This document shows positions 679 to 36,836 of a stretch of 42,392 bases of DNA, in pieces. A program made the position numbers and the translations under genes. Source of the DNA: a virus. The stretch is from the IMG/VR virus record IMGVR_UViG_3300034200_000772, positions 1 to 42,392 of that record; one strand, 5' to 3'. The notes under the pieces were generated by a model that was given only the letters and a program-made list of their open reading frames with translations, had not been told where the DNA came from and ran no database searches. Every line of letters begins with the position of its first letter. Positions within the stretch are counted from its first letter, which is position 1.

Positions 679-1797
679 ATGGCGAGCGCGACTGATTGGG
701 CAAGGGCGATTGGCACAACGCTGACAAACCACCTGCGCCAAGAAGAAATTGCGGTGCTTCGCAAGTTCCGCATCTTCGCCTCGCTCGAAGGTTCCGGCAA
801 CGTGCTCACCAATCAGTCGGGTCGCGGCTTTTCGTGGGAAGTTCGCTTCCGCAATCAGCCCGTGTCGGGCAACAACGGCGAGACTCCTCGGGTCTACTCG
901 CGCCAGAACCTGTGGAAGACGGCGAAGCTCGATTGGCGTGGGTATCAATGCACCGACGCGATTCTGCGCCGGGAGATGCTGGAGAACCGCGGCCAGCAGG
1001 CGCTGATCAACGTCGCAGGCAAGATGGCCTCGCGTCTTCAGGAGTCGGTCGAGCAGCACCTCGCCCGCGAGGTCTACGTTGACGGCGATGCGCCGGGCAA
1101 CGAGCTTCGATTCCAAGGGCTCGACTCCATGTTCGCGTATGACGGCACCGTCAACGTGGACACGGGTGCGAAGCGTGCCTACAACGCTGCCGATCCGTTC
1201 TGCTGGGCGAAGGACAGCTACGCCGGTCTGAGCACCGAACTCGGTGCCGAGGCTGGCTCGCAGCTGGAGAAGGGCAGCTGGCCCAACGTCGCGTGCGACC
1301 CGGAGTATGACTACTACACCCCGGTGATCTGCGCGTACAACAGCACCTTCTTCAAGGGTGCGACTCCGACGTGGAAGGATCAGTGCGTCGAGGCGGTGCG
1401 TGAGGCGATTCACCAAACGAAAAGAAATGATTCCAAGGAATCGGCCGTCGATCTCGTGATCGTGGATCGGCGCATGTACATCGACTACATGAACCGCCTC
1501 GACTCGAAGGAACGCACGCTCGTCACCCGCACGAACGGCCTGAAGTCCTACGGCTTCAGCGACGTGTTCGAGCAGGACGGCGTCGAAATCTCGACGGAAT
1601 ACGCCGTGCCCACGGGCTGCGGCTACGGCCTCAGCGTCGGCAACATGTACCTCCACTGCATGGAGTCGCAGCTGATCACCGCCGAGGGGCCGTACTACAA
1701 CCACCACAACCAAGCTTACGAGTACAACGCCAACGTCCTCGCCAACCTCCGCTTCGTCAGTCCGAGGAATTTTTTCAAGCTCGTGGCGGCGAAGTAA
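679..1797 (+). CDS. Major capsid protein, HK97-fold type
   Basis: A 372-residue protein likely forming the icosahedral shell. An A/G-rich Shine-Dalgarno stretch (AAAAGGAT) precedes the ATG at suitable spacing. Size, single-domain composition, an N-terminal helical segment followed by mixed alpha/beta sequence rich in aromatic residues, and an upstream scaffold-like gene all fit an HK97-fold capsid subunit. The middle holds a Cys-containing region (about residues 170-215, with PFCW and ACDPEYDYY) that may be a surface insertion. Residues 245-255 are encoded by an AT-rich patch with AAA, AGA and AAT codons unlike the GC-rich surroundings. The next gene follows after 33 nt and may decorate this shell. 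Family assignment is by overall character, since HK97 capsids share few motifs. Confidence 0.8.
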   Translation: MASATDWARAIGTTLTNHLRQEEIAVLRKFRIFASLEGSGNVLTNQSGRGFSWEVRFRNQPVSGNNGETPRVYSRQNLWKTAKLDWRGYQCTDAILRREMLENRGQQALINVAGKMASRLQESVEQHLAREVYVDGDAPGNELRFQGLDSMFAYDGTVNVDTGAKRAYNAADPFCWAKDSYAGLSTELGAEAGSQLEKGSWPNVACDPEYDYYTPVICAYNSTFFKGATPTWKDQCVEAVREAIHQTKRNDSKESAVDLVIVDRRMYIDYMNRLDSKERTLVTRTNGLKSYGFSDVFEQDGVEISTEYAVPTGCGYGLSVGNMYLHCMESQLITAEGPYYNHHNQAYEYNANVLANLRFVSPRNFFKLVAAK

Positions 1798-3687: not shown

Positions 3688-4248
3688 ATGGCCGACAAGA
3701 CATGTGAAGACTGTGGCGAGCAGCGGGAAGACACCCCGCTGAACTTCCCCGTCCACAAGAAGCGGCGGCAGAAGTGCCTGTCGTGCGTGGTCAAGATTCG
3801 TCGCAGAAAAGCCGACGCCAAGGCGGAGCACCGTGCCCGCAAGATGCAGCAGCTGGAGAACGCTGCGGTCGATGAGATGCTGAAGGCTGCCCGGCGTGGC
3901 GGCACAGACATCCCGCACTCGGCGGAACTGCTGGAGCAGGTGATGCACTGCTTCGGTGGCGTCAATGGGTTCTCGAACCTGCTGATGAAGAACTACTTCG
4001 ACTCGAAGCCCGGCAGCCCGCAGCGGACGAAGATCATGGAGATGATCACTCGTCTGGTGACGACCAACGCCGATCAGGGTGGGTCGAAGAAGCCGCTTAC
4101 GTTCTGGTCTGAGGAGGAGCTTAACGCCGAACTGGACGCCCGACTCCAGCAGGCGGTGGAGCAGTACATGCCCGCTCGCCAGCTGCCGGGCGTGCCCCGC
4201 ATGGAGGTGGACATTGCAGCCCTTGCCGAACATCCCGGTAACGAGTAA
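3688..4248 (+). CDS. Candidate small terminase subunit with zinc-ribbon-like N-terminus
   Basis: A 186-residue product with a strong Shine-Dalgarno. The N-terminus carries two CxxC pairs (Cys6/Cys9 and Cys30/Cys33), separated by a basic stretch, which could bind one zinc ion. Residues 35-65 are a strongly basic helix, followed by helical segments and an acidic helix near 140-160. The stop codon lies inside the start of the large terminase gene, the usual arrangement for TerS-TerL pairs, so DNA recognition for packaging is the likely job. A zinc ribbon is not standard in TerS families, so this is inferred from position. A small DNA-binding protein co-transcribed with the terminase is the alternative. 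Confidence 0.5.
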   Translation: MADKTCEDCGEQREDTPLNFPVHKKRRQKCLSCVVKIRRRKADAKAEHRARKMQQLENAAVDEMLKAARRGGTDIPHSAELLEQVMHCFGGVNGFSNLLMKNYFDSKPGSPQRTKIMEMITRLVTTNADQGGSKKPLTFWSEEELNAELDARLQQAVEQYMPARQLPGVPRMEVDIAALAEHPGNE

Positions 4249-5917
4249 CTACGCCAAGGAGAGGCTGCGCGAGCTACAGTCCGAGCTTCACGAGCGGCGG
4301 ATCGAGGCTCTCAAGCTCTACCGGCCCTCGAAGTTGCAGGATCAGGTTCACGCCTGCACGGCCTCCGAAGTGCTCGTCATCGGAGGCAACCGAAGCGGCA
4401 AGAGCTTGTGCACGTTCGTGGAGGACGCTCGTGCCGTCACGGGCCAAGACCCGTACAAGAAATATCCCGAGAAGGACGGCGTGCTCGTCATCATCGGCAG
4501 GAACTGGACACACATCGGACTCGTCTGTGTGCCGTACCTCCTGCGTGCGGGAGCCTTCAAGATCATTCGGGACGAGAAGACCAATCAGTGGCGGGCCTAT
4601 GACCCATCCACCGACTCGGCTCGCTCGCACCTCGCGAAGCCCGCCCCGCCGCTCATCCCGCCGCGGATGATCAAGTCGATCAGCTGGGTGCTGAAGTCGG
4701 CCAACTACTGCAACAACATCGAACTGCACAATGGATGGCGGATTCAGTTCTTTTCTGCTGAGGGAGAGCCTGCGCAGGGATATTCTGCCGACCGTATCCA
4801 CCTAGACGAGGACGTTGGGAACGACCAAATCCTCCCCGAAGCGCAGGCCCGACTTGCGGATCGCAAGGGTGTGCTGTGCTGGTCGGCTATGCCACATTCC
4901 AAGTCGGAGTCGCTCCTCGGCCTGTCCGAGCGTGCCGACCGGGCCGAAGAGTCGGGCGACCCGAATCCCTCCATCAGGAAGTTCACGCTCCGCTTTCTCG
5001 ACAACGCTTGGATCGACAACTCCGAGAAGGAGAAGATGATCCAGCGGTGGGCGGCACAGGGCGAGGACGTGCTGCGGATGCGTGCCGAGGGCGAGTTCAT
5101 CACCGACTCGGTGCTCGTCTACCCCAGCTTCTCCATGTCGGTGCACGGGATGTACCGGAACGAACTCCCGAACGGAGCTTCGATACCGGAGGAGTGGACA
5201 CGCTACGCCGCCATCGATCCCGGCCACGCCGTCACCGCGGTGCTGTTCATGGCCGTGCCGCCCGACAATTCGATGCTCCTCATCTATGACGAGCTTTACA
5301 TCCGGCAGGCGAACGCCACCCTCTTCGGGGAGAAGTTCGCCGAGAAGGTGCGGGGGCAGACCTTCTATCAGTGGATCATCGACATGCGTGGTGGTCGGCT
5401 CCGCGACATCGGATCGGGCCGTCAGGTGGTCGAGCAGTACATGGTGGAGCTACGCAAACAGAACGTCCGCTCTCTGACGACGGGGGCCGGGTTCATGGCG
5501 GGATGCGACGACATCCAATCCCGCACCAGTGCCGTGCGAACTGCCATGCACATCCGCCCGACGGGCACGCCGCGTTTAAGAGTACTCCGCGACTCCTGTC
5601 CGAATCTGGAGAGGGAACTCAAGAGGTATAGGAAGAAGACGCAGTTCGTGAACGGCATCGCAATCGTCTCCGATGAGCCGAACACCAAAGGCGAAGTGCA
5701 TGCATGCCAGTGCATGGAGTACCTCGTCGCTGCGGAGCCGAAGTTCGTGGCGCGCAAAAAACAAGACGAGGAAATACAGACCCCTGAGTGGATAATTCGC
5801 TACATGGAGCGGAAGAACCGCGGCCGACCGCCGAGCAACTTCGTGTACCTCGGCCCTCAGTCGGACATGTCTTCACAGGAAATGGAGGGAGCGAATGGCA
5901 TCGCAGAGTGGGTCTGA
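4214..5917 (+). CDS. terL: Large terminase subunit (ATPase-nuclease)
   Basis: The packaging motor: it cuts concatemeric DNA and pumps it through the portal. Measured from the proposed start, Walker A is GGNRSGKS at about residues 57-64, Walker B is IHLDED with its Asp near 198, and the RuvC-like nuclease domain opens with AAIDPGH, its metal-binding Asp near 335. The frame has no suitable ATG near the homologous region. A TTG at 4214 lies 6 nt after GGAGG (4203-4207) and gives 567 residues, a usual TerL length, overlapping the upstream gene by 35 nt. TTG at 4223 is an alternative. A far-upstream ATG at 4079 would force a long overlap encoding Arg/Ser-rich out-of-frame sequence. Identity is secure; the start is inferred. 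Confidence 0.9.
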   Translation: MQPLPNIPVTSNYAKERLRELQSELHERRIEALKLYRPSKLQDQVHACTASEVLVIGGNRSGKSLCTFVEDARAVTGQDPYKKYPEKDGVLVIIGRNWTHIGLVCVPYLLRAGAFKIIRDEKTNQWRAYDPSTDSARSHLAKPAPPLIPPRMIKSISWVLKSANYCNNIELHNGWRIQFFSAEGEPAQGYSADRIHLDEDVGNDQILPEAQARLADRKGVLCWSAMPHSKSESLLGLSERADRAEESGDPNPSIRKFTLRFLDNAWIDNSEKEKMIQRWAAQGEDVLRMRAEGEFITDSVLVYPSFSMSVHGMYRNELPNGASIPEEWTRYAAIDPGHAVTAVLFMAVPPDNSMLLIYDELYIRQANATLFGEKFAEKVRGQTFYQWIIDMRGGRLRDIGSGRQVVEQYMVELRKQNVRSLTTGAGFMAGCDDIQSRTSAVRTAMHIRPTGTPRLRVLRDSCPNLERELKRYRKKTQFVNGIAIVSDEPNTKGEVHACQCMEYLVAAEPKFVARKKQDEEIQTPEWIIRYMERKNRGRPPSNFVYLGPQSDMSSQEMEGANGIAEWV

Positions 5918-6271: not shown

Positions 6272-8362
6272 ATGGACGAGATCGGCGACCTTTCTGACAA
6301 GGGCATTGACCCTACGCCCAAGCAGTCGAGCCTTCCGCCGGATTCCCCTCTGCGGCCCATTGCCGCCATGTGGCTGAAGAAGATTGCATCCGCCAAGCGT
6401 GCCAAGTCTGCCTTCGACGCAGACGCCCGCGAAGGCATGTATTTCTTCGATGGCGGGGCACGCTGGTTCTTCGAGAACAGCAACAAGGGGCAGAGCCTGA
6501 TGAGCAGGCCAGCCCCGGCCCCTGCCTTCAGAATCGTCGTCAATCGCGTGTTCGAGGCCGTGAAGCTGCTGGGGGCGGTGCTCTACAACCGCAACCCCGT
6601 CCGTACCTGCACGCCACGCAAGTTCCCGGTCATCGCTCCGCAGATGCTCGGGATCATGCCCGACGCCCAGCAGATCGACCCGATGACGGGGATGCCGATG
6701 CCCAACCCCGCCGTGGACATGTTCATCCAGACGAGTCAGGCGGTGGAGCTTGCGGAGCAGAAGAAGCAGATGCAGGGGCAGCTGCTGGAGGCGTACCTCA
6801 ACTGGACGCCCGTCGAGAACAACCTCAAGGCCCACTCCCGCAAGGCGATTGACGAGGCGATCATCAAGGGTGCCGGGGTGTTGTGGACTGAGGCGCTTGA
6901 GCAGCCGAACGTCCCGCCCGCAGAGCCGACGCTCGTGGTCGGTTCGTTCATGGACTCCATCGACAACCTGCTGCTCGACCCCGACGCTCAGGTGATCGAT
7001 GAGATCACATGGTGCGCCCGCCGCTGCGTGCTGCCCATCGAGCAGGTGGCTCGCATGTACGGCCTGTCGCGTGAAGACCTGAAGCCGAACCTTGAGAGCT
7101 ATGACTCAGCGACTCGTCAGCACGACGACCGCTACCAGCAGGGGTTCAAGAAGCGGACGGGCAAGACCAACGACCTCTGCACGTTTTACAAGATTTGGTC
7201 GAAGACGGGATTCGGCGACCGGCTCAAGGATTCAAAGAAGGAAGACCGCGGCATCTTCGATCCGCTCGGTGACTACGCCTACATCGTCGTCGCCGAGGGA
7301 GTCGAATATCCCTTGAACGTCCCACCGGAAGCACTGAAGGAGCAGCTGGACGAGGACGGCCTGCCGCAGTCGCTGCGAGTGAAGACCTCGTGGCCGATCC
7401 CCTACTGGGCAGACACGAACGGCTGGCCGTTCGAGATGCTCGCCTTCCACCCGAAGCCCAACAGCCTGTGGCCTATCAGCCACATCAAGCCGGGCATCGG
7501 CGAACTCCGCTTCATCAACTTCGCCCTTTCGTTCCTCGCCACCCGCATCGGCGTCAGCTGCGAAACCATCGTGGGCGTGAGCAAGGCCGCAGACCAAGAC
7601 CTCAAGGATCAGTTGCTTGCACCCAGCGAGCAGGGGTTCAAGGTGTTGGAGATTTCTGAAGCACTCGGGAAGAGCGTCAACGAAATCGTAAGCGTGTTCA
7701 ACATGCCGCAGGTGAACCGCGACGTGTGGGAGATCATCGCTGCCGTCACCGAGATGTTCGACAAGCGTGTCGGCCTGACCGAACTCGCCTACGGCCAAAC
7801 GCGGGCCCAGATGCGCAGTGCCAGCGAAGCGAGCGTGAAGCAGGAGAACATGTCGATCCGCCCCGACGACATGGCCGCAGTGGTCGAGGATTGGATGAGT
7901 GCCATCGCACGCAAGGAAGCCATGGCTGCACGCTGGCTGCTGCAACCCAAGGACGTGGCCCCGGTGCTCGGCCCTCTCGGTGCTGAGGCGTGGGGCATGC
8001 ACCTCTCTTCTGCGTCGGGCGACCCCGCGGGCTCCATCGCTCGCGAGTTCGACTACCGGATCGAGAGCGGCTCCGCGAAGAAGCCGAACAAGTTGACTCG
8101 CATCGATCAGATGCAGATGGCCCTCCAGACGCTCGGCCCTGTGTTGCAGGGTCTGATCCCGATGGGAGTTGTCGATCCGTTCAACGCACTCATCTCGTCG
8201 TGGGCCGACTCGCTCGACCTCGATGCCACGCCCTTCCTAGTTCCCCCGCCGCCGCCGCCGCCCATGCCTCCTCCAGCTGGGCCTGCTGGCGCGGCGGGGG
8301 AACCGCCACCGAATGGCCCGCCGCCCGCCACCGCCGGAAGTGAGGCGATGCCGCAATCTTAG
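6272..8362 (+). CDS. Portal protein
   Basis: A 696-residue protein with a GAGGAG Shine-Dalgarno. Length close to P22-type portals (about 700 residues), location directly after the large terminase, and overall character support the portal: a ring at one capsid vertex through which DNA is packaged and ejected. Visible segments include an N-terminal helical wing (YFFDGGARWFFE near residue 62), several Trp/Pro-rich wing segments (TSWPIPYWADTNGWPFEML), and a long helical C-terminal crown or stem region (EMFDKRVGLTELAYGQ onward). The last 50 residues are a Pro/Ala/Gly-rich disordered tail with a run of eight prolines. That tail DNA also encodes the start of the endonuclease VII gene in another frame. 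Confidence 0.8.
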   Translation: MDEIGDLSDKGIDPTPKQSSLPPDSPLRPIAAMWLKKIASAKRAKSAFDADAREGMYFFDGGARWFFENSNKGQSLMSRPAPAPAFRIVVNRVFEAVKLLGAVLYNRNPVRTCTPRKFPVIAPQMLGIMPDAQQIDPMTGMPMPNPAVDMFIQTSQAVELAEQKKQMQGQLLEAYLNWTPVENNLKAHSRKAIDEAIIKGAGVLWTEALEQPNVPPAEPTLVVGSFMDSIDNLLLDPDAQVIDEITWCARRCVLPIEQVARMYGLSREDLKPNLESYDSATRQHDDRYQQGFKKRTGKTNDLCTFYKIWSKTGFGDRLKDSKKEDRGIFDPLGDYAYIVVAEGVEYPLNVPPEALKEQLDEDGLPQSLRVKTSWPIPYWADTNGWPFEMLAFHPKPNSLWPISHIKPGIGELRFINFALSFLATRIGVSCETIVGVSKAADQDLKDQLLAPSEQGFKVLEISEALGKSVNEIVSVFNMPQVNRDVWEIIAAVTEMFDKRVGLTELAYGQTRAQMRSASEASVKQENMSIRPDDMAAVVEDWMSAIARKEAMAARWLLQPKDVAPVLGPLGAEAWGMHLSSASGDPAGSIAREFDYRIESGSAKKPNKLTRIDQMQMALQTLGPVLQGLIPMGVVDPFNALISSWADSLDLDATPFLVPPPPPPPMPPPAGPAGAAGEPPPNGPPPATAGSEAMPQS

Positions 8363-13992: not shown

Positions 13993-14008
13993 CCCCGAGA
14001 GGTGCTGA

Positions 14009-15514: not shown

Positions 15515-15517
15515 ATC

Positions 15518-15946: not shown

Positions 15947-15955
15947 GACGGCATC

Positions 15956-17993: not shown

Positions 17994-18950
17994 GTGTACT
18001 ACACCGCCCATGACGCCATCGACTATCTGCTGCAATCGGCTGGTGGCGGCGCTCAGGATCAGGAGCACCGCATCATTCGGGCAGCTGTCCACCACGCCTA
18101 CCGCGACGTGAGCAACGCCAAGGATTGGCTGTGGTATGTGACCGAGAACTCGATCACCACCGCACAGGGCAAGAACACCTACCTCCTGCCCGAGGACTGC
18201 TCGAACGTCGATGCGCTGATCTCGCCCGACAACACGACCATCACCAGCTACATCTCGCCAGCTGAGTGGGTTCGGCTGGAGAAGAGCAACCTCACCCTCG
18301 GCGAGCCCGTGTACTGGACGGTGATGAAGTCCAGCGACCCGAAGACGTTCGACCGCTGGGAGATTCGCATCGCAGGGCAGGTCAAGGCCGGGACGATGTT
18401 CCGCTACACCTACCGCCGCCGACCGAAGCCGCTCACGCTGATGGGCTACGAGACGCAGTGCCGCACCGGCTACGCCACCGTCGCGGGCGACGTGGTGACA
18501 GGGAAGAACACCAACTTCCCGACCAAGTGTGCGGGGGCCATCTTCCGCATCGGCACGCCGGGCAACTACCCGGAGCCGCTGTCGGGCATGTACCCCTACG
18601 CCGAGCAGGCCAAGATCATGGCCCGCGGCGACTTGGACTCCCTGACGCTGGAGCTTCCGCTCACCGGCAGCTACGAGGACTGTCGCTATGTGATCTCGGA
18701 TCACCTCGACGTGTCGCCCAACATGTTCACGGCCGTGCTCACGGGTGCGGAGATGTGGATGGCCCGCATGCAGGGCAAGGGCATCGAGGGTGCTGTCGGG
18801 CTGTACACCCGCGACCTCAAGCTCGCCATGGAGCAGGACGTTGTGGCCCCCATCTCGGGCCGTCGTGCGCCGTATGACCGGGTGCCCGACTCGGATGGTG
18901 CAAGGTACGCAGGCGTCTACTCTCCGCTCGGCCCCGACCAAGGGACGTGA
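17994..18950 (+). CDS. Head-tail adaptor protein (podovirus type)
   Basis: A 318-residue protein with GTG start and a strong AAGGAG 6 nt upstream. The N-terminal helical domain (AHDAIDYLLQ, HHAYRDVSNAKDWLWY) followed by a beta-rich region (TYLLPEDCSNVDALI, WEIRIAG, FRYTYRRRPKPL) and a C-terminal helical part is the layout of podovirus adaptors or tail-tubular A-type proteins (P22 gp4 or T7 gp11 function), which join the portal to the nozzle. The following genes look like nozzle components, supporting the call. The stop is 3 nt before the next ATG. Confidence 0.6.
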   Translation: MYYTAHDAIDYLLQSAGGGAQDQEHRIIRAAVHHAYRDVSNAKDWLWYVTENSITTAQGKNTYLLPEDCSNVDALISPDNTTITSYISPAEWVRLEKSNLTLGEPVYWTVMKSSDPKTFDRWEIRIAGQVKAGTMFRYTYRRRPKPLTLMGYETQCRTGYATVAGDVVTGKNTNFPTKCAGAIFRIGTPGNYPEPLSGMYPYAEQAKIMARGDLDSLTLELPLTGSYEDCRYVISDHLDVSPNMFTAVLTGAEMWMARMQGKGIEGAVGLYTRDLKLAMEQDVVAPISGRRAPYDRVPDSDGARYAGVYSPLGPDQGT

Positions 18951-19242: not shown

Positions 19243-22128
19243 ATGGGAATCCACAGGCTCGCCGCGAACAACCCCGCGACCGTCGTGGTCGGTAGGCACC
19301 AGTTTGCCTATCTGTACCAAGGGAACGGGCAGCGACCGCTCCGCATCGATCTGACCAACGGCACCGTATCACCGAGCGGCATCGACGCCCCGGAGAACGA
19401 GCCCAAGATCGCCATCGGGACGACGCCGCTGTACTACGTTGCCCGTGCGGACGTTGGCAACCGCGGCACTCAGTACACGCTCCCGCCCACGATCACGTTT
19501 CCGGGGGATTGCGAGCGGCCAGCTGTCGCAAGGTGCTTCCTTGAGGGCGACGGCATCGGCTCGGTAACGGTGATCGACGGCGGTCGTGGGTACAAGGCAC
19601 CGCCCACCTCCTCGCTCGGCGGAACGTCTGGAACTGGTGCGGTGCTCGAAGCTGTTCTCGGTGACGCCTCGACGGCGAACACTGGCATCTCGGCTGGGTC
19701 GCTCGTTCGCAACGCCGATTACTCGCCGTGCCTCCTGCCGGTGAACTATGACGGCTTGCCCGTAAACGGCCTCTCGCCGCTCCCTAATTGGTCGGTGACC
19801 GACAGCCGCGGGAACGTGTGGAAGTTTGTCCGCAAGGTCGGGAGTGCACTCACCTACTCGGTCGAGATTCGCCAGAGCTTCGGAAGCACACCGACGACCT
19901 TCACCACCCCGGCCTTGGCGGAGATCACCTTCGCCACCACCGTGGTGATCGACTCGCTAACGTATCCCATCTCGCTCAGTAACGCTGGCATCAAGATCGT
20001 GCGGCCGGGCGAAGGCTACTCCCCCACGCCAGTGGTCATCGAGGTGCCCGGTGCCGGTCGGCCCACCGTCGCCGACGGCAAGCCGGTGTACACGTCCTGC
20101 GGATCGCCGGGCACCCAGCCGCTGGTGCTGGAGTTTCGAGTGGACGCTGGCGAGGCGACGACCGACCGACCGATCAGCCGCGTGAATGTGGTGAGCGGGG
20201 GATCGGGGTACACCGGATCGCCGCGGATCGCTGTCGCTCAGAACTACGGCAGCGGTGCGTCTCTGCGGGCTATCACCAGCGGCGGAGCGATCACGAGCGT
20301 GGAGGTGGTTCAAGGTGGTGCGTACTCGGAGCCCCCCGAGCTTGCACTGGACAGCGGCGGCGCTGCCGTGATCCCAATCGCACGGGCCCACCTCCGCGGC
20401 CTCTATCAGTGCTGCTACCGCTACGTTGACGACACGCCGCCCGAACGCGGTGGCCCCATCTGCTCGTCCATCTCGCCCATTGCCGAAGTGGACTGCGGGG
20501 ATGGTGCCGGTTCGATCACATGGGTGGTCGATCCGCCGCCGGTCGTGCCGGGCCGCACCCTGAAGCTGGAGCTTTGGCGGAGTACTGGGGATCAGGCGTA
20601 CCAGCTGTATCGCCTGCCCGACTCGGCGATCACCAAGGACGACTTCACCGACGCGGAACTCCAGAACCCGAACCGAGAGGGCTACCTCTCGATGCCGATC
20701 CTGCTGCCGAACGGCGAGCTTAACGCCGGTCGCTTCGGAGTGCCGCCGTCGGACAAGGCCGTCGCCTGCATGTTCCAAGACCGCCTCTGGGTGGCGGGGG
20801 ATACGAGCGGCAAGCAGCCCAACACCCTCTACTACTCAGAGGTGGACGAGCCCGAGAGCATCCCCGAGGTGAACGACCTCGTGCTCCAGACGAACGTCAA
20901 GGGGCACGACCACATCACGGCACTGATCCCATACGGCGGCTCGCTCGGCGTCATGCAGACGCACCACGCCTACCGCCTCTCCTATGTGGCCCAGCCGCTC
21001 ATCGACGCCAACCTCCAGCTGGCCGCATTCCGGGGCTGCGTCAACCAGCGGTGCTGGGACGAGTACGAAGGCGTCATCTACGCCATGGACTCAGACGGCG
21101 TGTACGCCATGGATCAGGGCGGGCAGGTCAAGTCCATCAGCGAACCCATCGCCGATCTGTTCATGTCCAAGATCGACTTCACCGACCCGCGGTGGTTCAG
21201 CGTCGTCGCGGACAAGAACCTGAACGTACTCCGCGTGAGCGTGCGTCTCGTCGGCGACGAGCCGGGGCCGTACCCCACAAGGCAGTTCGTATACTCGTTC
21301 ATCGCTAACGGCTGGTGGGAGGAGCGTTACCCCAACCCGCTCGTCGGCGGCTGCAACCTCAACGACGCTACCGGCTATTACCGCTGCTTCTTCGGCGGAG
21401 CAGACGGCACGATGTATGGGGTCGCATACGGCAATGCCGACTCCGCATACAAGACGATTCACAAGGTGACGCTGGCCGACGCGGGCACGGGATACACGAT
21501 GCCGCCGAAGGTCAGAGTCACTGGCGGTGCCGGTGCGGAGATCGTGACGGCAGTGCGAGGCGACGGCAGCCTCCTTGGCATCTACATCCGCTGCGGCGGA
21601 TATGGCTACGAGAACCCCACCATAACCATTGACCCGCCGCCCGAGGGACGCACGGCCACGGCCACCTGCGAGACTTTCACCGGCCCGGTGCCCATCCCCT
21701 GCTGGTACAAGTCGGGGAACATGGAGTACCCGAGCGACTCGCTGGCTCCCGGCGGCAAGGTTGATCAGAACCGGAGCGTGTCGGTGCTCTTCACGCCGAC
21801 GCAGGGGCCAACGCCGCTCAAGCTCTTGATGTACTACAACAACGCGGCCTTCCCGCGTGGCAATGTCGTGCAACGTGATCGCGGAGATGGGGCCGTCTAC
21901 AACGACCACGAGCCGACCGTCAGCATCGACATGGATGCGGGCCTGCTTCCTCCCGACATCTCTTCCGGCGTGTGCCGAGCCATCTTCACGGGCCACACGA
22001 TGGACGACATCCGCGGCAATGACCGCCACGTCGCGGTCGAGCTTGCGGTGGCACGCACCTCGTCTGGCAAGGCGACGATCCACCAGCTGGATGTCTACGG
22101 GGTGCCCAATCCCAACGGGGGTGGCTGA
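19243..22128 (+). CDS. Tail nozzle-like protein with inserted GxGYxxP modules
   Basis: A 961-residue beta-rich protein with GAGGAG upstream. The core (about residues 385-720) contains strings typical of phage nozzle propellers: KLELWRSTGDQAYQLYRL, VACMFQDRLWVAG, TLYYSEVDEPESIP, ITALIPYGGSLGVM and CWDEYEGVIYAMDSDGVY. Inserted around it are six copies of a G-x-[GA]-Y-x-x-x-P module (near residues 114, 256, 320, 357, 748 and 786), a small beta unit known from phage tail and baseplate proteins. The protein is longer than T7 gp12 (about 794 residues), consistent with insertions. It probably closes the tail tube and contacts fibres. TGATG couples it to the next gene. Confidence 0.6.
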   Translation: MGIHRLAANNPATVVVGRHQFAYLYQGNGQRPLRIDLTNGTVSPSGIDAPENEPKIAIGTTPLYYVARADVGNRGTQYTLPPTITFPGDCERPAVARCFLEGDGIGSVTVIDGGRGYKAPPTSSLGGTSGTGAVLEAVLGDASTANTGISAGSLVRNADYSPCLLPVNYDGLPVNGLSPLPNWSVTDSRGNVWKFVRKVGSALTYSVEIRQSFGSTPTTFTTPALAEITFATTVVIDSLTYPISLSNAGIKIVRPGEGYSPTPVVIEVPGAGRPTVADGKPVYTSCGSPGTQPLVLEFRVDAGEATTDRPISRVNVVSGGSGYTGSPRIAVAQNYGSGASLRAITSGGAITSVEVVQGGAYSEPPELALDSGGAAVIPIARAHLRGLYQCCYRYVDDTPPERGGPICSSISPIAEVDCGDGAGSITWVVDPPPVVPGRTLKLELWRSTGDQAYQLYRLPDSAITKDDFTDAELQNPNREGYLSMPILLPNGELNAGRFGVPPSDKAVACMFQDRLWVAGDTSGKQPNTLYYSEVDEPESIPEVNDLVLQTNVKGHDHITALIPYGGSLGVMQTHHAYRLSYVAQPLIDANLQLAAFRGCVNQRCWDEYEGVIYAMDSDGVYAMDQGGQVKSISEPIADLFMSKIDFTDPRWFSVVADKNLNVLRVSVRLVGDEPGPYPTRQFVYSFIANGWWEERYPNPLVGGCNLNDATGYYRCFFGGADGTMYGVAYGNADSAYKTIHKVTLADAGTGYTMPPKVRVTGGAGAEIVTAVRGDGSLLGIYIRCGGYGYENPTITIDPPPEGRTATATCETFTGPVPIPCWYKSGNMEYPSDSLAPGGKVDQNRSVSVLFTPTQGPTPLKLLMYYNNAAFPRGNVVQRDRGDGAVYNDHEPTVSIDMDAGLLPPDISSGVCRAIFTGHTMDDIRGNDRHVAVELAVARTSSGKATIHQLDVYGVPNPNGGG

Positions 22129-25510: not shown

Positions 25511-28500
25511 ATGGGTCAGGAAATCTGGAACAAGGTCTTCACCAAGCACCTCTCGAACCTCGGCGACATTGGGGATTCCTCGAAGTCTGCCAAGAAGGGC
25601 AAGAAGGCCAAGGGCGGCGGTGCGGCCGGTGGCGAGGTTTCAGCCGAGGCGATCCGCGAGATGCTCTCGTCTGAGGACGGCATCAAGCAGCTGACCGAGA
25701 TCATCGACGGCGACACGAAGAAGCAGAAGGCCATTCGGGCCACGCTCTCGGCACGCAACAAGGCGTGGGCCGACGACTTCGATGAGGCGATTGCCGGGCA
25801 GACGAAGGCCGCGAAGCTGGACTCGGGCTACGAGGGGCCAGACGTGGAGTCGATGGCAGGCGAGGGATCGACCACCGAAGACCGCATCCTCGACGGCGTG
25901 GAGAAGGTGGAGAAGGCTGCGGAGCGGAAGAACCTTTCTCGCAGTGGCCCTCGCGAAGTGCGCCGCAATGTGGCCGACAACAAGCGCGGCCAGATGCGGG
26001 AAGAGTATGTCGAGAACGAGGTCGTTCCCCCGCTCGTGGAAGAGGCGAAGCGGCAGGACGACATCGTCGGGCTCGGCGAGGACGAACTGCCCGATGACCC
26101 GAAGGTCGCGAAGTCGCCCGAGCGGAAGACCGCGAAGACCCTCAAGATCGGTGAGCAAGAGTTCTTCGTGAAGTCCCGCGGTGACGCCCGCAGCCGGTTC
26201 GACAACATGCCGAAGCCGACCCGCTCCAAGAAGGGGCCGGATGGCAAGGTGCTCCGCGACGAGGATGGCAATCCCATCGAGGAACCGCAGACGCTGATGC
26301 AGCAGAAGGGCATCAGCGACAAGCAGCTGTCCATGTCTCGCGACCAGTTCGTCGCCGACGTGAAGAACTTCCTCAAGCAGGCCAAGCCGACGAAGGCGGA
26401 CGGCAAGCCCTACAAGCTCGATGAAGTGCTCGGCATGAATAACGAGCAGCTGCGCGAGTTCGCGATGAAGCACCGCGGTGGCGGCGACCTGTTCAGCCTC
26501 ACGCACTTCGATGGCGAGATGAAGAAAGGCCACGAGCCCGGCAGCCCCAAGGGGCAAGAGAGTGCCGTCAACAAGTCCATGACCTCTAGCGAGCGGCTCC
26601 AGCACGAGACTGCCCGCAGAGCAGCTGGCACCGACCCGGCTGCACAGCGCGGCCGGTCAGTGTCCGAAGAGGAGGCCATCGAGGGCGGCATCCCGCTCAC
26701 TGCACTCCCGCAGTCGGCCTTTGGTCGGCAGTCGGCGTCGGCCACCTCGCGGATCGGCGACGGCATCGACGGCCTTGAGAACGCATTCGGTGCCCGGCAG
26801 GCCATGCAGATTCGGGCAGCACTCTCGAAGCTCCCAGATGACGAGGCTTTCACTAAGGCTTACGAGATCGCCGAGGTCATCAACACCCGCGGCCTGATGA
26901 ACACCGAGCGGACGACGCCGCGGGCGGACATCGACGCGAAGTTCGGCACCGCCTCCGCCATCCTCGCCTCGGTCGGCAAGGAGATGGGTGTGATGCCCCG
27001 CGGTGTAGCCACCAAGGCCAACAAGGCCACGCGGGCTACGGGCGACACTGCATCGAACCCGCCCGTCCAGCCCGACCCGGTGAAGCAGGCTCCTCTCGGC
27101 GAGCACTGGCGGCACGATTGGCAGCAGGCCGATGGCCCAGCTGTCGATCCCTCCGCCGATCCGCAGCCGTCGATGAAGACCCCTGCGCCGACCGGCCCTG
27201 AGTACCGCAGCAACGTGGGCGGCAAGACGGCCGACCAGCTGATCGAGGACTACCGGGCGGGTCGCATCACTGACCCCGACGAGGCGGCGAAGGTCGAGGA
27301 GTTGATCGAGTCCCGCCAGCAGTGGGACGACCACCTCGCGGCCATCGGCAAGGGCAAGACCAAGGGGATGGGAACGGAGCAGAAGACTCCCGTCCGCAAG
27401 AAGTTCGACCCGAACCCCGTCAAGCAGACCGTGCCCCGCCCGACCATTGACGACATCGGTGGCGACGGCTCTTACCTGCTCGGCAAGAAGGGCAAGTCTG
27501 CCGAGACTGAGGTGGGCGTGCCTGACGAAGAGGCCGTCGAGGGAGTTGTGGACGTGACGAACGTGCCGCGCAAGCGTGGTGCTGCCGCGAAGCCCGAAGC
27601 TCCCGCCGCAGCTGCACCGGCACGCACGTTCAAGACATTCAAGGATGAGTACAGCGACCTGCTGGCTCGTGCCCGTAGCTCCGACGGCTCGAACGCCGCC
27701 GAACTCACTGCCGCCTACGAAGACATCCACGCCCGCCGCAGCCGGATGGGTGGCGTCGGCACCAACCCCGAGGTCGATGCGTTGGTCGAGGAAGTTGCCG
27801 CAGCACTCGGCGATCTTCCGGTCGCTTCCGCCGCGAAGGCTGCACCTGCCGCCAAGGGCACCGCTCCGAAGAAGGCTGCCGCACCTGCGAAGCCGCAGTA
27901 TGACGAGCCCCTCGGCCCGTCACGCAACGCTTGGGAGTTCTACCGCGACGAGATCGGGTTCACGCCCGACGGCACCTCGGTGCCTGCCGACTCGGTTGAC
28001 GCCCCTGCCCCGGAGGTTGTCGCCCCCGAGAAGACTCCGGTGCGTCGAGGCCGCAAGCCGAAGGCCGCAGTGTCGGAGGCCGCACCTGCTGACGTGACGG
28101 CCACGCCTTCCTCTGAGCCCTACGGCCCCAGCCGGGCAGAGTGGGCCAACTCCCAGATGGATGCGTGGGAACTGGAGGACGACCTCGCACGCATGGACGA
28201 CGAGGGCGGCATGTACCCCGTCACCCCCAAGCGGCCCGATGCTGCCCCGGCTGGGCAGCTGCGTGGGACGCAGGGTGCGTCGGGCTATGACCCCAACTAC
28301 AACAACGTGCCGTGGCCTCGCACTCCCGACCAAAGCGGATGGCCGACTCAGACGAGCACCTACGATCCTTACCGCACCGTGGCCGACGACACTGGGATAC
28401 AGCACGGCCCGTTCCCCGAGGACGTGGTCGGGTGGTCTTCTGACCTGCCCGCGTTCTCGCGATATGACGAACCACTCGGCCCTCCCCGCCCCGATGTATC

Positions 28501-28819
28501 GCCGAGCAGGCTGACCGACGGGGAGAAGAGGTTCCTCGCCGCGGCCGGTGGCGGTCTTGGAATCGCCGGGCTCGTCGCACTCCGAAACAGCGTATCAATG
28601 CCGAACGCTGTGCGACCGGCGCGGGCACCGGCGGGCCCGGCTGTCACCGCCGGATCGGAAGACACGATGGCCGGTGAGGGCGGCGACTTCACCGCGGCTG
28701 CCGCAGTGGCCGCGTCGTTGGGCGACAGGTTGGATCGCGTTCGCTCTGCCCGTGAGCGAGTGGCACGCAGCCGACTCGGCCTGCCCGGCTTCCTGCATTC
28801 TGACACCTCAGCGGAGTAG
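25511..28819 (+). CDS. Large internal (ejection) virion protein
   Basis: A 1102-residue Ala/Lys/Pro-rich protein, mostly low-complexity linkers with helical islands. A hydrophobic segment near residues 1007-1024 (FLAAAGGGLGIAGLVAL) could be a membrane-active helix used during DNA entry. A motif of the form [YD]EP[LY]GP[SP]R occurs three times (about residues 797, 869 and 985), and a second unit, EEA[IV]EG...[LV]T..P, occurs twice. There is no lytic transglycosylase or peptidase signature. Size, position and repeats fit a podovirus core or ejection protein. Much of it is probably disordered, and its function cannot be read from the sequence. Confidence 0.55.
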   Translation: MGQEIWNKVFTKHLSNLGDIGDSSKSAKKGKKAKGGGAAGGEVSAEAIREMLSSEDGIKQLTEIIDGDTKKQKAIRATLSARNKAWADDFDEAIAGQTKAAKLDSGYEGPDVESMAGEGSTTEDRILDGVEKVEKAAERKNLSRSGPREVRRNVADNKRGQMREEYVENEVVPPLVEEAKRQDDIVGLGEDELPDDPKVAKSPERKTAKTLKIGEQEFFVKSRGDARSRFDNMPKPTRSKKGPDGKVLRDEDGNPIEEPQTLMQQKGISDKQLSMSRDQFVADVKNFLKQAKPTKADGKPYKLDEVLGMNNEQLREFAMKHRGGGDLFSLTHFDGEMKKGHEPGSPKGQESAVNKSMTSSERLQHETARRAAGTDPAAQRGRSVSEEEAIEGGIPLTALPQSAFGRQSASATSRIGDGIDGLENAFGARQAMQIRAALSKLPDDEAFTKAYEIAEVINTRGLMNTERTTPRADIDAKFGTASAILASVGKEMGVMPRGVATKANKATRATGDTASNPPVQPDPVKQAPLGEHWRHDWQQADGPAVDPSADPQPSMKTPAPTGPEYRSNVGGKTADQLIEDYRAGRITDPDEAAKVEELIESRQQWDDHLAAIGKGKTKGMGTEQKTPVRKKFDPNPVKQTVPRPTIDDIGGDGSYLLGKKGKSAETEVGVPDEEAVEGVVDVTNVPRKRGAAAKPEAPAAAAPARTFKTFKDEYSDLLARARSSDGSNAAELTAAYEDIHARRSRMGGVGTNPEVDALVEEVAAALGDLPVASAAKAAPAAKGTAPKKAAAPAKPQYDEPLGPSRNAWEFYRDEIGFTPDGTSVPADSVDAPAPEVVAPEKTPVRRGRKPKAAVSEAAPADVTATPSSEPYGPSRAEWANSQMDAWELEDDLARMDDEGGMYPVTPKRPDAAPAGQLRGTQGASGYDPNYNNVPWPRTPDQSGWPTQTSTYDPYRTVADDTGIQHGPFPEDVVGWSSDLPAFSRYDEPLGPPRPDVSPSRLTDGEKRFLAAAGGGLGIAGLVALRNSVSMPNAVRPARAPAGPAVTAGSEDTMAGEGGDFTAAAAVAASLGDRLDRVRSARERVARSRLGLPGFLHSDTSAE

Positions 28820-28824: not shown

Positions 28825-30816
28825 ATGGCCGACGTTCGTGAACTGCGCGCATTGCGTGATGAACTGGTCGCATTGCGCGAGGGGATGGCTGCTCGCAGAA
28901 CCCCCGCCACGCCCGTGTCTCTGACCCCACCGGAGACTCCGAAGGCCGGGGGTGTGACGCTGCCGTCGCGCGCCGAGAAGGACATGATGACCCGCGGGCC
29001 GCTCACGTTCCTCGACAACACGGGCCAGCACTCCACGTCTGGACACATCTCATCGTTCGACCCCAAGAACGGCGTCGTGCAGATCAAGAAGGAGAACGGC
29101 AGGAACACTGTCGTTCCGCTCCAGCGCCTCAGCCCCGAGTCCCGCGACTTGGTCTACGCCAAGGCGGGCATGCGCGACACCGTGACGGGCGAGCTTCGCC
29201 CCGATCTGGTGAAGCACGCCAAGTCCAAGATCGGCAGCAAGCCCATCGACCGTGCGACCGCCGTCGCGAAGAAGGTCGTTGAGTCCACGATGCCGAGCAA
29301 GCCAGCTGCTAGCCCTGCCGCTGCTCGCCCCGCCCCAACCAAGAGGCCCATGACCGACGACGAGCGCGGCGCTAGGGTGGCCGAGCTTATCCTCCAAGAG
29401 AACGGCGGCGACACGGCCGACGCCCACGCCGCTCTGTACCAGAGCCTGCTCGCCTCCGGGGCCAGCAAGGAGACGGCCATGCGAGTGGCCGCACGCGACA
29501 TCGCTCGTGCCCAGCTGAAGCCCCGCTCCACCGAGGCCGACGTGCAGCGTGAGCGTGACGCCAGCATGAACGAAGCACGGGCAGCGAACGGGCTTCCTCC
29601 CATCGCCACCCGCAGCACCACTCCGCCCACGAAGGCGGAAGGCGTCGGCACGAACCGGCTCCCGCCCTCTGGTGAGCGAGACGAGTCGGGCCGAGATTGG
29701 AGCAACTGGGTTCCCGGCATGCCTCTCCCCGCCATGGGGCCTGACGGCTCTGTGCTCGCCGACAACGCACGCCGTGCACGCGAGGCGGAACGCAAGGCCG
29801 AGAACGACCGGAAGCGTAACGAGGCGATTGGCGAGAAGTTCGGGGCCAAGGCCCAGCAGATCGCCGAGGACGGCGACCGCCGCGGCGTGACCGACTACAA
29901 CGCCACTCGCAAGCCGATCAACCAGCGGCGACTCGATCAACGCCGCGAACTCGAAAAGCAGCGGGACTTCGGTACGCCGGAACAGTCCGCACAGGCGGAC
30001 GCCAAGCTGCGTGCGATGGACGCTGCTGCTGCTCAGGCCCGCAAGGATTTCCGAGCAGGCGTTCGCGGCACCGACTCGTACCAGCAGTACGAGGCTCGCC
30101 AGAACAACTCGATGAACGATTGGAAGCAGGCCGCAGTCGAGCGGTCGGGCAACGCTGGCGGCATGATCTCCCGCCTCATGGGAACCGGCGAGGCGAGTGA
30201 CGCCATTCACGCCTACCAGCTGCTCACTCGCCTCAACCCGCAGAACGCCGCTGCGTACACGCGGCAGATGGAAGCGATCATGGATGCCGAGAAGGGCAAG
30301 GCTGCCGCCGCCGCCGAAGCTGCCCGCGTTCAGGGCCGGGAGAAGGACAAGGAGAAGGAGAACCCCTCCACCTACGCCTCCAACTGGATCAGGTCGAACA
30401 GCAATAACGGCATGACGCTGGACGCCAAGGCAGCAGCCTTGCGGGCCGACCTCGAAGCTCAGGGGGTTGACCCCAAGACGGCGGCGGAGCTTGCCGCTCG
30501 TGCCGTTGAGTCGCACTCCTTCGAGCGGGCCGCGATGGGCCACGTCTCGCCCGACATGCGGCAGCACATGCTCAATATCATCGGGCAGATCGACCCGGCT
30601 ACCGGGAAGCCGAAGCTCGACGCGGACGGGAAGACGCCACTGCCGCCGCTCTCCCGCGACGAGTTCTCGCAGCGGGCTGCCATGCAGGGGCTCGCCCCGG
30701 AAGTGTCTGGGCGCATCTATGACTCCCTCACGGCGAAGCCCGCGGCTCCTGAGCGGGCACAGGCAGCCCTGCCGCCGCAAGCTGTCCGAGGCCAAGACTT
30801 CCGCCGAGGGGGTTAA
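28825..30816 (+). CDS. Ejection-type virion protein with SHD1-like domain
   Basis: A 663-residue protein. An N-terminal helix and Pro/Thr-rich linker precede a domain at about residues 57-112 that matches the SHD1 (SLA1 homology domain 1) pattern: an opening 'RGPLTFLDNTG', a strand 'GHISSFDP', 'VVQIKKENGR', then 'VVPLQRLSPESRDLV'. SHD1 is a small beta domain particularly abundant in planctomycete proteins, where it occurs beside secreted or cell-surface modules. The rest is Ala/Arg/Asp-rich, helical and low-complexity. The 3' end runs to 4 nt before the next gene. The SHD1 match is by pattern recognition and deserves a profile search. Confidence 0.55.
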   Translation: MADVRELRALRDELVALREGMAARRTPATPVSLTPPETPKAGGVTLPSRAEKDMMTRGPLTFLDNTGQHSTSGHISSFDPKNGVVQIKKENGRNTVVPLQRLSPESRDLVYAKAGMRDTVTGELRPDLVKHAKSKIGSKPIDRATAVAKKVVESTMPSKPAASPAAARPAPTKRPMTDDERGARVAELILQENGGDTADAHAALYQSLLASGASKETAMRVAARDIARAQLKPRSTEADVQRERDASMNEARAANGLPPIATRSTTPPTKAEGVGTNRLPPSGERDESGRDWSNWVPGMPLPAMGPDGSVLADNARRAREAERKAENDRKRNEAIGEKFGAKAQQIAEDGDRRGVTDYNATRKPINQRRLDQRRELEKQRDFGTPEQSAQADAKLRAMDAAAAQARKDFRAGVRGTDSYQQYEARQNNSMNDWKQAAVERSGNAGGMISRLMGTGEASDAIHAYQLLTRLNPQNAAAYTRQMEAIMDAEKGKAAAAAEAARVQGREKDKEKENPSTYASNWIRSNSNNGMTLDAKAAALRADLEAQGVDPKTAAELAARAVESHSFERAAMGHVSPDMRQHMLNIIGQIDPATGKPKLDADGKTPLPPLSRDEFSQRAAMQGLAPEVSGRIYDSLTAKPAAPERAQAALPPQAVRGQDFRRGG

Positions 30817-30819: not shown

Positions 30820-33800
30820 ATGTCCCTGACCGGAACTCCCTCGTTCCTCGGGCAACGGACGGCAGACCTCCCTGCAATCTCGCAGGCAGAGGAGGACTCC
30901 CTGCTCGCCAAGTTGGGCAGGCAGGGCGGGCAGTTCGTATCCGATCTACTCTGGGGGCTCGACACTCCCGGTGCCGTCATCCGCAGCGGCATCGACTACC
31001 TGCAAGATGGCAAGTGGAACAACCCGCTCGACGCTGACCAGCGGGTGAGCGGTGAGCAGCTGCTCGACAACGCTGGCGTTCCTGCTGGCACTGCGAGATG
31101 GCTCGGAGGAGCGGCGACCGACATCGTTCTCGACCCCCTGACGTGGCTCGGCGGGCCCATGACCGCACTGACCAAGGGCGGGCGAGCGGCCAAGGCTATC
31201 GGCACGCTCGATGAAGCCGCCGAAGTGGCGAGCCGCAAGCTGCAAGACGCCGCCATCGCAGGCAGGACACCCATCGCAGGCCGTGCCCAGCGAACACTCG
31301 ACGCAATGGACTCGAACATCGAGGACTACATCGAGCATTCGGCCCGCCCGCTCGTCGGACAGCGTGTCGCCATGCGGCAGCAGACGCTCGAAGACCTGAT
31401 GCAGGGCAAGGATCAGAAGACGTTCGACGCGCTCAATGCCTTTCTCGAAAAAAAGGGCTGGAAGTACGATGACATCAAGGGCGAGAAGCTGGGAAAGTCC
31501 TTCGGTGTGGCTGGAACCCCCATTGCCTTTGATCCGCTTGGCTCGGCTGCGGGCGAAAGGCTTGCTGCTGGCATGGATCGCGTCGGAGAATCGATCCGCT
31601 GGTCGAAGCCCGGCCTCGTGGCGCACTCCATTTTCAACAAGGCGGTCGGGGGCCAGACCGACGCCATCACGCAGGCTGCGGCCACGCGGATAAACGCAGC
31701 CGCCGAGGTGGGAGAATCTCGCGGCCGGGTCGCAGCGGCGGATATGGCCCACGACCTCACTAATGCAAAGATCGATGACGCCGTTGCCCAGCGCACCGGC
31801 ATCTCCGCAGTGTTCTCGCCCGAGGCGGCGGACGCGATGGATCGCTACATCGAAGGCGTGGCGGCTACGGCCAACGACATCGACTTCGTCAACAGCACGC
31901 CGGGCGTCAAGGCGTTCATCGACAAGTGGGGAGCACAGGCTCCTGACATCCTCCGCCGCAGCGAGGAGATGGGGCTGCGTGCCCACCAGCTGGATCACGC
32001 TTTCGGGGCCAAGTACCGGCCGTATCAGATGGAATCCCTGCTTGAGCGTGCGGCTGGCGGCAAGAAGGGGAAGACCGCCCTCTTCGACATGGCGACCGGC
32101 GACATGCTGAAGCGCAAGAAGTCTCTTCAGCTGCCCGGTGGCATCGACCAATTAAGAGCACTCAGCCAAGACCCCCGGTTCGTCGGTCTGGGCGATGCGT
32201 TCCAAGAGGATCGTGTCGCTCAAGAACTGTTCGATGAGATCAACAACTTCGCTGGCGGGCAGTACTACCAAACGCCAGCCGGGCAGGCGGTCGCCCAGCG
32301 GCAGCAGCAAATCCTGCAAGGAGTGCAGGCGTTCCCTCCGGGTGCACGCCGCCCGCTGAAGCCGGGCGTACACGGGCCTGTGATTGGGACGCCTCAGCAG
32401 TCTGGGCTCGGGGCATACAAGAGCGGGCCGTACACAAAGGGCAAGGCCCGGCAGCTGGCGAAGTTCCTGCACGATCTGGATGTGGTGAAGGATGCCCAAG
32501 GCAACATCACTTCCGGCCCGGTGTTCGGCAACAACCCGCTCGAAGCTGTGGCCCGCTACACCGTGGGCCGCGAGCGAGCCATCGACACCGCGGATGCCGT
32601 CATCGACACCATCGCCTCCCGGCTGGTGCAGGGAACTGCTGGCGGCATGCAGGGCGGCAAGCACATCTCCGCCAAGAACGCACTGGCACGGGCGGGCATG
32701 CGGTCGCCACTCGATCCGGCCACCAACATTCGAGGCGGTGCTGCCCAGCAGCTGCGTGAGCGGATCGCCGCCAAGCTGACCAAGACCACGGGCCAGACGG
32801 TCAACCCTGACACCATCGACCTCGCGCACTACGCCATCTCCGAGGACGCTATCAACAGCCTCACTCGGATGCACGACTTCTACGCCCAGCCAAAGGCGGT
32901 GGAAGGACTGAGCCAGTACCTCGACCAGTACACCAAGGTGTTCAAGGCACAGGTGCTCACTTGGCCGAGCCGGTTCACGCGGGACTCGATGAGTGGGTTC
33001 GTGAGCAACTCCATCGAGGCCGGGCCCGCGGCTGCCCTCGAAGGGACGATGCAAGCGGCGAGCCTGCTCGAAGGCAAGTATGACAAGGTGATGCCGTACA
33101 TCCGGCGGATGCCGCTGTACTCACACTACACCACTAACGAAGAAGCACTGAAGCAGTTCCTGCTCGACTCGGCTGAGGCGAAGATTCTCCGGGGCGGCTC
33201 GATCACCGACGTGATGGCGGGTGACCGCTCCGCTGCGTCGATCCAGAAGCTGCTGCCCGGCCAGACGCCGCAGTCCATCGTGGGCTCGATCAACTACGAT
33301 CCCACTCGCTCATGGGGCACGGCACTCAACCCCTTCGGCGTGCGTGGAGTGGCGGGCCGGAAGGACACGACCAACGCCATCTACAAGACAGGCGAAGCAC
33401 TCGGCGACTACACCGACTCGCTCAACCGGATGGCCGGGTACATGGCTCTCCTTCAGAGCGGCGTGTCTCCGCAAGAGGCGGCACGTCGCATGGGTGCGGC
33501 ACATGTGTTGTATGACAACCTCTCCACCGTGGAGCGCCAGCTGCGTGACCGCTGGATGCCCTTCTATGCGTACTCCAGCCGCATCGGGAAGTACGTTGTC
33601 GAACGCATGGCGGAGCGGCCGGGCGGGCCATACGGCCAGATGCTCAAGCTGGTGGACAAGGCGCAGCAGACAGACGACGACACCTATGTACCGCAGACCA
33701 TGCGCGAGCAGACCGGGTTCGCCATCCCGAAGGAACTCGGGGCGTTCACCGAGGCGATGGGTCTGGGCAACGTGGCGGAGCCCAACCCCGGCGTGCGTCG

Positions 33801-34476
33801 GTTCGTGAAGAACCTCGACCTCCCCGGCCTGAGCGTGCTGAACCTGCTGTCCACCGCGAAGACCGGCGGCGAGTTCGACGCCAACGCATCAATCGTCAGC
33901 ACGATCCAGAACGTGGGCCAACAGCTGGCACCCCACCTGCGGTCGGGCATCGAGCTTCTCACGCAGCAGGACATGCACACCAAGCGGAAGCTCGGCGAGG
34001 TGCCCAGCGAACTCGACACCATCATCGGTGCGGCCACTGGCAACGAGGACTTCCGGCTGCCCAGCGCGGTCAACTCAGCCGTGGACATTGCGGCTCCCGG
34101 TGCCAGCCGGGTACTCAGTCTCGGTCGCCAGATCGCAGACCCGAGGATCGAGAACGTGGGCGAACGTGTCGGGCAGGCTCTCTTCAATCAGGTGAGCCCC
34201 GTGCGATTCGGGCTGGTAGACGAGAAGCGCCAGAGGAACGACGCCATCCGACAGCTGGATGAGGAGCTAGGCCGCACGCCCCAAGCTCGCACCATGGAGA
34301 TCACCTCCATCGCCAAGGATGACTTCGACAAGCTCACGCCCGAGATGCAGAAGTACTACCTGTTGCGGCAGCAGCTTCAGAAGAAGAACCGGGCCGAGTC
34401 GAAGAAGCGGGAAGACGCCCAGAAGCGGGCCGCTCGGTTCAGCGGGTTCTCTGCTCAGTCGGCACTGTTGCAGTAG
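30820..34476 (+). CDS. Very large internal virion / ejection protein
   Basis: A 1218-residue protein with GAGGGGG upstream. The N-terminal 130 residues (with LLWGLDTPGAVI and ATDIVLDPLTWLGG) resemble the opening of large proteins of many podoviruses and of polyvalent mobile-element proteins. The middle is helical. The region around residues 835-965 (NPFGVRG, NAIYKTGEALGDYTDSLNRMAGY split over helices, LRDRWMPFYAYSSR) has the aromatic-rich membrane-proximal look of the same family. There is no catalytic motif. It ends the rightward structural block and is likely injected with the DNA, helping form the trans-envelope channel. The family is not named with certainty. Confidence 0.6.
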   Translation: MSLTGTPSFLGQRTADLPAISQAEEDSLLAKLGRQGGQFVSDLLWGLDTPGAVIRSGIDYLQDGKWNNPLDADQRVSGEQLLDNAGVPAGTARWLGGAATDIVLDPLTWLGGPMTALTKGGRAAKAIGTLDEAAEVASRKLQDAAIAGRTPIAGRAQRTLDAMDSNIEDYIEHSARPLVGQRVAMRQQTLEDLMQGKDQKTFDALNAFLEKKGWKYDDIKGEKLGKSFGVAGTPIAFDPLGSAAGERLAAGMDRVGESIRWSKPGLVAHSIFNKAVGGQTDAITQAAATRINAAAEVGESRGRVAAADMAHDLTNAKIDDAVAQRTGISAVFSPEAADAMDRYIEGVAATANDIDFVNSTPGVKAFIDKWGAQAPDILRRSEEMGLRAHQLDHAFGAKYRPYQMESLLERAAGGKKGKTALFDMATGDMLKRKKSLQLPGGIDQLRALSQDPRFVGLGDAFQEDRVAQELFDEINNFAGGQYYQTPAGQAVAQRQQQILQGVQAFPPGARRPLKPGVHGPVIGTPQQSGLGAYKSGPYTKGKARQLAKFLHDLDVVKDAQGNITSGPVFGNNPLEAVARYTVGRERAIDTADAVIDTIASRLVQGTAGGMQGGKHISAKNALARAGMRSPLDPATNIRGGAAQQLRERIAAKLTKTTGQTVNPDTIDLAHYAISEDAINSLTRMHDFYAQPKAVEGLSQYLDQYTKVFKAQVLTWPSRFTRDSMSGFVSNSIEAGPAAALEGTMQAASLLEGKYDKVMPYIRRMPLYSHYTTNEEALKQFLLDSAEAKILRGGSITDVMAGDRSAASIQKLLPGQTPQSIVGSINYDPTRSWGTALNPFGVRGVAGRKDTTNAIYKTGEALGDYTDSLNRMAGYMALLQSGVSPQEAARRMGAAHVLYDNLSTVERQLRDRWMPFYAYSSRIGKYVVERMAERPGGPYGQMLKLVDKAQQTDDDTYVPQTMREQTGFAIPKELGAFTEAMGLGNVAEPNPGVRRFVKNLDLPGLSVLNLLSTAKTGGEFDANASIVSTIQNVGQQLAPHLRSGIELLTQQDMHTKRKLGEVPSELDTIIGAATGNEDFRLPSAVNSAVDIAAPGASRVLSLGRQIADPRIENVGERVGQALFNQVSPVRFGLVDEKRQRNDAIRQLDEELGRTPQARTMEITSIAKDDFDKLTPEMQKYYLLRQQLQKKNRAESKKREDAQKRAARFSGFSAQSALLQ

Positions 34477-35835: not shown

Positions 35836-36836
<1,001 letters not shown>

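Follow-up and report, generated by a model that had tools for sequence, protein, structure and literature searches.

The window, by which we mean the whole stretch of 42,392 nucleotides analysed here, belongs to an uncultured tailed phage, with genes for capsid, terminase, portal-like, SU10-type adaptor and tail proteins, an Erf annealing protein, an exonuclease and a helicase. The features on which the analysis turns are the following:

679..1797, plus strand: major capsid protein (PHROG major head protein, E 1e-11)
4079..5917, plus strand: terminase large subunit, true start probably near 4256 (weak Terminase_6N match; tblastn to annotated terminases)
6272..8362, plus strand: portal-like protein (weak SU10 portal match; conserved in all relatives)
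17994..18950, plus strand: head-tail adaptor of SU10 type (PF24175 above cut-off)
19243..22128, plus strand: tail/head-closure protein, lying upstream of the gene trio (matches to structural PHROGs, among them head closure Hc2 at E 4e-18)
25511..28819, plus strand: 1102-aa protein, first of three (no Pfam or PHROGs family)
28825..30816, plus strand: 663-aa protein with the SHD1-like domain, middle of three (ORF list, composition)
29005..29157, plus strand: SHD1-like domain, residues 61-111 of the 663-aa protein, predicted small barrel of four strands and a C-terminal helix (profiles, Pfam segment scan, AlphaFold2 with and without alignment, Foldseek to 2HBP)
30820..34476, plus strand: 1218-aa protein, third of three (relatives in phages G007 and G308 and in Pirellulaceae contigs)

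The tail-fibre region (9790-16579) carries collagen-like G-x-y repeats, and its ORFs at 10587 and 12837, as well as those at 14009, 15518 and 15956, have similar C-terminal domains, as if duplicated. A cysteine-rich protein with repeated C-C-N-G-K-C blocks, unusual in a phage, is encoded at 22778-23812; a cysteine-rich ORF is also present in the relative G817:C68 (2951-3883).

The 663-aa ORF has a GC3 of 0.81, and its product is charged and of low hydrophobicity outside the SHD1-like domain, which lies near the N-terminus after a short helical or linker region. Neither Pfam nor PHROGs had a family matching the whole protein at E<0.1, and tblastn against 50,697 phage records returned nothing. 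When viral contigs were scanned with one protein at a time, no relatives of the 663-aa or the 1218-aa protein emerged; an alignment query retrieved the G007 group alone. Relatives of the 1218-aa protein, 23-26% identical, were found in G007, G308 and three Pirellulaceae genome contigs. The 1102-aa protein has a hydrophobic stretch near its C-terminus, as does its positional counterpart in G007.

An earlier reading of this DNA, made from the sequence only, had described at about residues 57-112 an ordered pattern of D-N-T-G, VVQIKKENGR and VVPLQRLSPESRDLV, and had assigned it to the SHD1 family. All blocks were found in the same order, and the pattern is real, but the span proved slightly narrower (residues 61-111). 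Neither hmmscan of the whole 663-aa protein nor a direct PF03983 search of the record gave a Pfam SHD1 match. When the 61-aa segment was scanned alone, SHD1 ranked first of 24,736 Pfam families (E 0.014), but its 15.6 bits fell below the curated PF03983 cut-off of 23.7 bits; thus, we call the domain SHD1-like and do not file it as a Pfam member. The absence of an SHD1 profile hit, which the sequence-only reading had named as grounds for abandoning the assignment, was therefore seen solely in its weakest form, a missed PF03983 cut-off, while profiles built from bacterial domains indicated clear homology.

For these profiles, bacterial SHD1 domains were collected by scanning the genomes of 84,980 species with a general consensus of the family, which yielded 21 SHD1 loci, all in Planctomycetota, Verrucomicrobiota or (one) Acidobacteria. 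The profile of these 21 domains scored the phage segment at 31.1 bits (E 2e-7 among 20,001 sequences), while the maximum for 20,000 shuffled copies of the segment was 10.5 bits. Against the whole ORF it gave E 8e-7, the top result of a six-frame search that took in the window and two relatives and whose next best value was 0.04. A second profile, made of 26 domains from proteins that Pfam's own SHD1 model found in three planctomycete genomes, gave 30.7 bits for the segment and E 1.2e-6 for the whole ORF; with both bacterial sets combined, the whole ORF reached E 1.1e-7. The hhalign probability for the phage domain against SHD1 was 96.5%, and a profile of phage and bacterial domains together retrieved the SHD1 domain of yeast Sla1 (2HBP) at 1.9e-10. 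Judged by these profile scores, the match is far beyond chance, and homology to SHD1 in the broad sense is clear. A PDB sequence search with the segment alone returned just weak antibody look-alikes, and no SHD1 was present in the annotated phage records or phage protein families searched. A clear SHD1 also occurs in a second IMG/VR contig, which has tape-measure and other tail genes (L154:2-481, RTWTDATGKFSVEARYVKR); the ORF that holds it is cut by the contig end and may be a host gene at the edge of a prophage.

The AlphaFold2 model obtained with the SHD1 alignment placed strands at residues 60-64, 70-79, 84-89 and 94-98 and a helix at 104-113, with pLDDT about 90 in the core. Its best solved match, and the sole one below 0.001, was Sla1 SHD1 (Foldseek E 7e-4, TM 0.71/0.76), which superposed with an rmsd of 1.6 over 59 columns. 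To guard against a bias from the aligned SHD1 sequences, the segment was also folded without any alignment, and the same strands and helix were obtained at pLDDT 75. This single-sequence model resembled small barrels generally, with PHF1 Tudor domains first; 2HBP ranked ninth (E 9e-3) but had the longest alignment (58 columns). A search of viral structures in BFVD gave no match below 0.001. The segment is thus predicted, with and without an alignment, to have the SHD1 fold, a small barrel with a C-terminal helix, as the earlier reading would have it. The missed Pfam cut-off and the slightly better fit of the single-sequence model to PHF1 Tudor than to 2HBP would also suit an unrelated small beta barrel of the Tudor, SH3 or chromo kind, whose likeness to SHD1 arose by convergence. 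However, on the whole ORF two SHD1 profiles attained E about 1e-6 and nothing else was significant, and this, together with the hhalign probability and the two 2HBP results, leaves convergence very improbable.

A planctomycete host had been proposed for the phage on the basis of the domain. Independent evidence supports infection of planctomycetes, more exactly of the Pirellulaceae type, through related terminase, portal and capsid genes in Pirellulaceae genomes. In a search within that family, the terminase profile matched 4 of 241 genomes, with a best score of 795 bits, while the best terminase match in the 50,697 phage records was 73 bits at 22% identity (tblastn); a query with one terminase sequence, put to 294 genomes from across the phylum, had no match. 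The 55-kb contig G817:C68 repeats the phage gene order, with capsid, terminase and portal 60%, 54% and 50% identical, and G776:C50 has the same core at a greater distance and a tyrosine integrase adjoining the TrmO gene, so that it is apparently an integrated prophage; such contig evidence carries the caveat that genome bins can contain stray phage contigs. The prophage-like span of G776:C50 covers about 1152-37950 (L167, L168), with the integrase by trmO and a serine resolvase at the opposite end. SHD1 itself is concentrated in Pirellulaceae: of 41 genomes sampled from the family 37 have it, against 2 of 40 taken from across the phylum, and one of these two is the Pirellulaceae reference, Stieleria tagensis.

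Host prediction by tRNA, which had also been suggested, did not hold up. Upstream of the exonuclease gene the window contains the 5' half of a tRNA-Pro(CGG) gene (35918-35976), which reaches 96% identity with bacterial tRNA-Pro across some 53 nt, while the 3' half is degenerate; ARAGORN places a tRNA-Pro at 35922-36013, and there was no Rfam match at the gathering score. The half gene, possibly an integration relic, matches equally well in Planctomycetota and Verrucomicrobiota and thus carries no host signal. CRISPR-spacer and prophage DNA matches to the right half of the window were sought in 392 and 289 genomes and set aside, the matches listed all being to this tRNA-Pro half.

Close portal genes occur at eight loci. 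The longest relative, G308 (63 kb), has ends that overlap by 127 bp and is therefore probably complete. The window is likely incomplete, missing about 20 kb that G308 has; a stretch of about that length without counterpart in the window lies at about 12300-33000 of G308:C1 (L078, L079). The SHD1 domain was absent anywhere in G007, G308, G817:C68, G776:C50 and G696:C100. Its absence from every relative examined indicates that the domain is lineage-specific, and since these relatives live without it, that it is not essential to the phage family.

In sequence terms the phage domain is divergent. It scored 34 bits, at the low end of the 25-88 bits of genuine SHD1 domains left out one at a time. 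Two near-invariant residues are replaced, R (93%) by L and D (96%) by S, and F stands conservatively for a near-invariant W; the near-invariant G, L and S are retained, and the D-x-x-G, V, N-x-G and LS positions are conserved. With R and D lost and a low-end score, the ligand of the phage domain may have changed. The same losses, with the absence from all relatives, might mean that the domain is a relic or neutral passenger of recombination that lost its ligand site and serves as a mere spacer, yet the reading frame, the hydrophobic pattern and a confident predicted fold have been kept, as if the fold were under selection, and we consider such a relic distinctly unlikely. As to the source of the domain, acquisition from the host had been proposed, and a host origin seems probable; base composition gave this idea no backing, as the GC3 of the domain (0.92, against 0.80 for the rest of the gene) lies inside the range of 60-codon windows (0.70-0.93) and so shows no sign of recent transfer, and 50 aa offer too little sequence for a tree.

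The 663-aa product had also been called an ejection protein. In favour of this is the position of the gene, which belongs to a run of large genes following those for the adaptor and tail; no match to a known ejection protein was obtained. In phage T7 the ejection genes gp14-gp15-gp16 follow the adaptor and tail genes. Both the window and G007 have a trio of large, medium and large genes in such a place, with its gross features preserved; G308 shares the similar block after the tail genes, and a comparable trio exists in G817:C68. None of the three window proteins has a sequence match to PHROGs, Pfam or PDB, known ejection proteins included. The 593-aa counterpart in G007 was considered as a hidden homologue of the 663-aa protein and rejected on comparison. 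Gene order thus makes an ejection role a reasonable inference. Alternatively, the 663-aa product could be a cytoplasmic late protein, absent from the virion, whose domain acts in the host cell after entry. It has no homology to any structural protein, and the gene block starts with a small acidic, lysine-rich protein of no family; against this, the gene is closely flanked by two very large ones, downstream of the tail genes, in an order kept in relatives, which renders a cytoplasmic role quite improbable.

The yeast SHD1 domain binds the NPFxD endocytic signal, of which NPF and DPF are weaker variants (PMC7889276), and extracellular bacterial proteins with SHD1 have been described (PMC5906684); a structure paper is cited in PMC12808100. 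Several of the bacterial SHD1 proteins that we fetched start with hydrophobic, signal-like stretches. Of the 57 proteins in set 1, 9 had an N/D-P-F motif no more than about 30 residues behind SHD1 (9 in 1,825 positions, compared with 7 in 26,971; loci L018, L019, L017, L021, L045, L042, L022, L037 and L026), as had 6 of the 29 in set 2 (6 in 749 positions, compared with 4 in 13,100; L125, L129, L130, L142, L144 and L150). In each set, NPF showed the strongest enrichment of all tripeptides in the stretch directly following SHD1. The enrichment P values were 2e-9 (set 1, in which four proteins had been seen before the motif was picked) and 2e-7 (set 2), and both overstate independence, because outside the domain the proteins fall into about two families. 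The motif-bearing proteins form about two such families, one with SHD1 near the N-terminus and one with SHD1 at the C-terminus and NPF as a tail.

The phage 663-aa protein has no N/D-P-F after its domain, and binding of a short motif in trans is therefore proposed. An NPF partner inside the phage was considered and rejected, N/D-P-F not being enriched in phage proteins (4 against 2.1 in shuffles). The same count bears on another explanation, in which the SHD1-like domain would be an assembly contact with a neighbouring internal protein and never touch the host. The three genes are adjacent, and the 1218-aa neighbour has a single NPF, at residue 837 (LNPFG), with GNPFL in a comparable region of its G007 relative; however, G007 has the NPF without SHD1 and G817 has neither, and an assembly contact seems to us unlikely, if worth keeping in mind.

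The explanation that we prefer, with a probability of roughly 45%, is that the 663-aa product is an ejection-type protein of a Pirellulaceae phage whose SHD1 barrel grips a short motif during entry. The protein would probably belong to a set of three internal virion proteins in a tailed phage of Pirellulaceae-type planctomycetes, with a divergent SHD1 near its N-terminus of the kind that these bacteria appear to use in secreted proteins. The domain would most likely be a small peptide-binding barrel; as the 663-aa protein leaves the capsid, the barrel could grip a short motif on a protein of the host envelope or on a partner virion protein, and so dock or steady the ejection assembly. Both the ejection role and the peptide binding are to be read as inferred. 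Our leading conjecture is that the module acts in the host envelope by binding peptides, perhaps N/D-P-F motifs, given their enrichment beside bacterial SHD1 and the ligand of the yeast domain. The more specific proposal that planctomycete SHD1 recognises N/D-P-F in extracytoplasmic proteins, and that the phage SHD1 takes hold of that system during DNA injection, is doubtful.

A phage that bears SHD1 and is tied to Pirellulaceae by independent evidence offers a handle on the function of bacterial SHD1, which is not settled, and on host entry by phages of a poorly known group. The occurrence of N/D-P-F after bacterial SHD1 makes that bacterial function directly testable, as the yeast domain binds the same motif.

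Among known systems, Sla1 SHD1 (2HBP), an endocytic adaptor domain, shares with the phage domain the predicted fold and the D-x-x-G, V, N-x-G and LS positions. The two are 20% identical, the phage domain departs at the near-invariant R, D and W, and the Sla1 domain belongs to an actin/clathrin adaptor whereas the phage domain lies in a phage protein. Secreted SHD1 proteins of Pirellulaceae and Verrucomicrobiota (PF03983) are related to the phage domain by profile homology, and many of them, like the phage protein, have one such domain close to the N-terminus with a long region behind it. These host proteins have beta-propeller, protease or PQQ parts, whereas the phage protein has no recognisable partner domain, and it differs from them also in the missing N/D-P-F and in its score below the Pfam cut-off. 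The relatives G007/G308, G817:C68, G776:C50 and G696:C100 have the same order of capsid, terminase, portal and 1218-aa relative as the window; in carrying SHD1, the window phage stands apart from G007/G308 and the Pirellulaceae contigs. Finally, although none of the three window proteins matches gp14, gp15 or gp16 of T7 in sequence, the trio resembles these internal virion proteins in gene order and size pattern.
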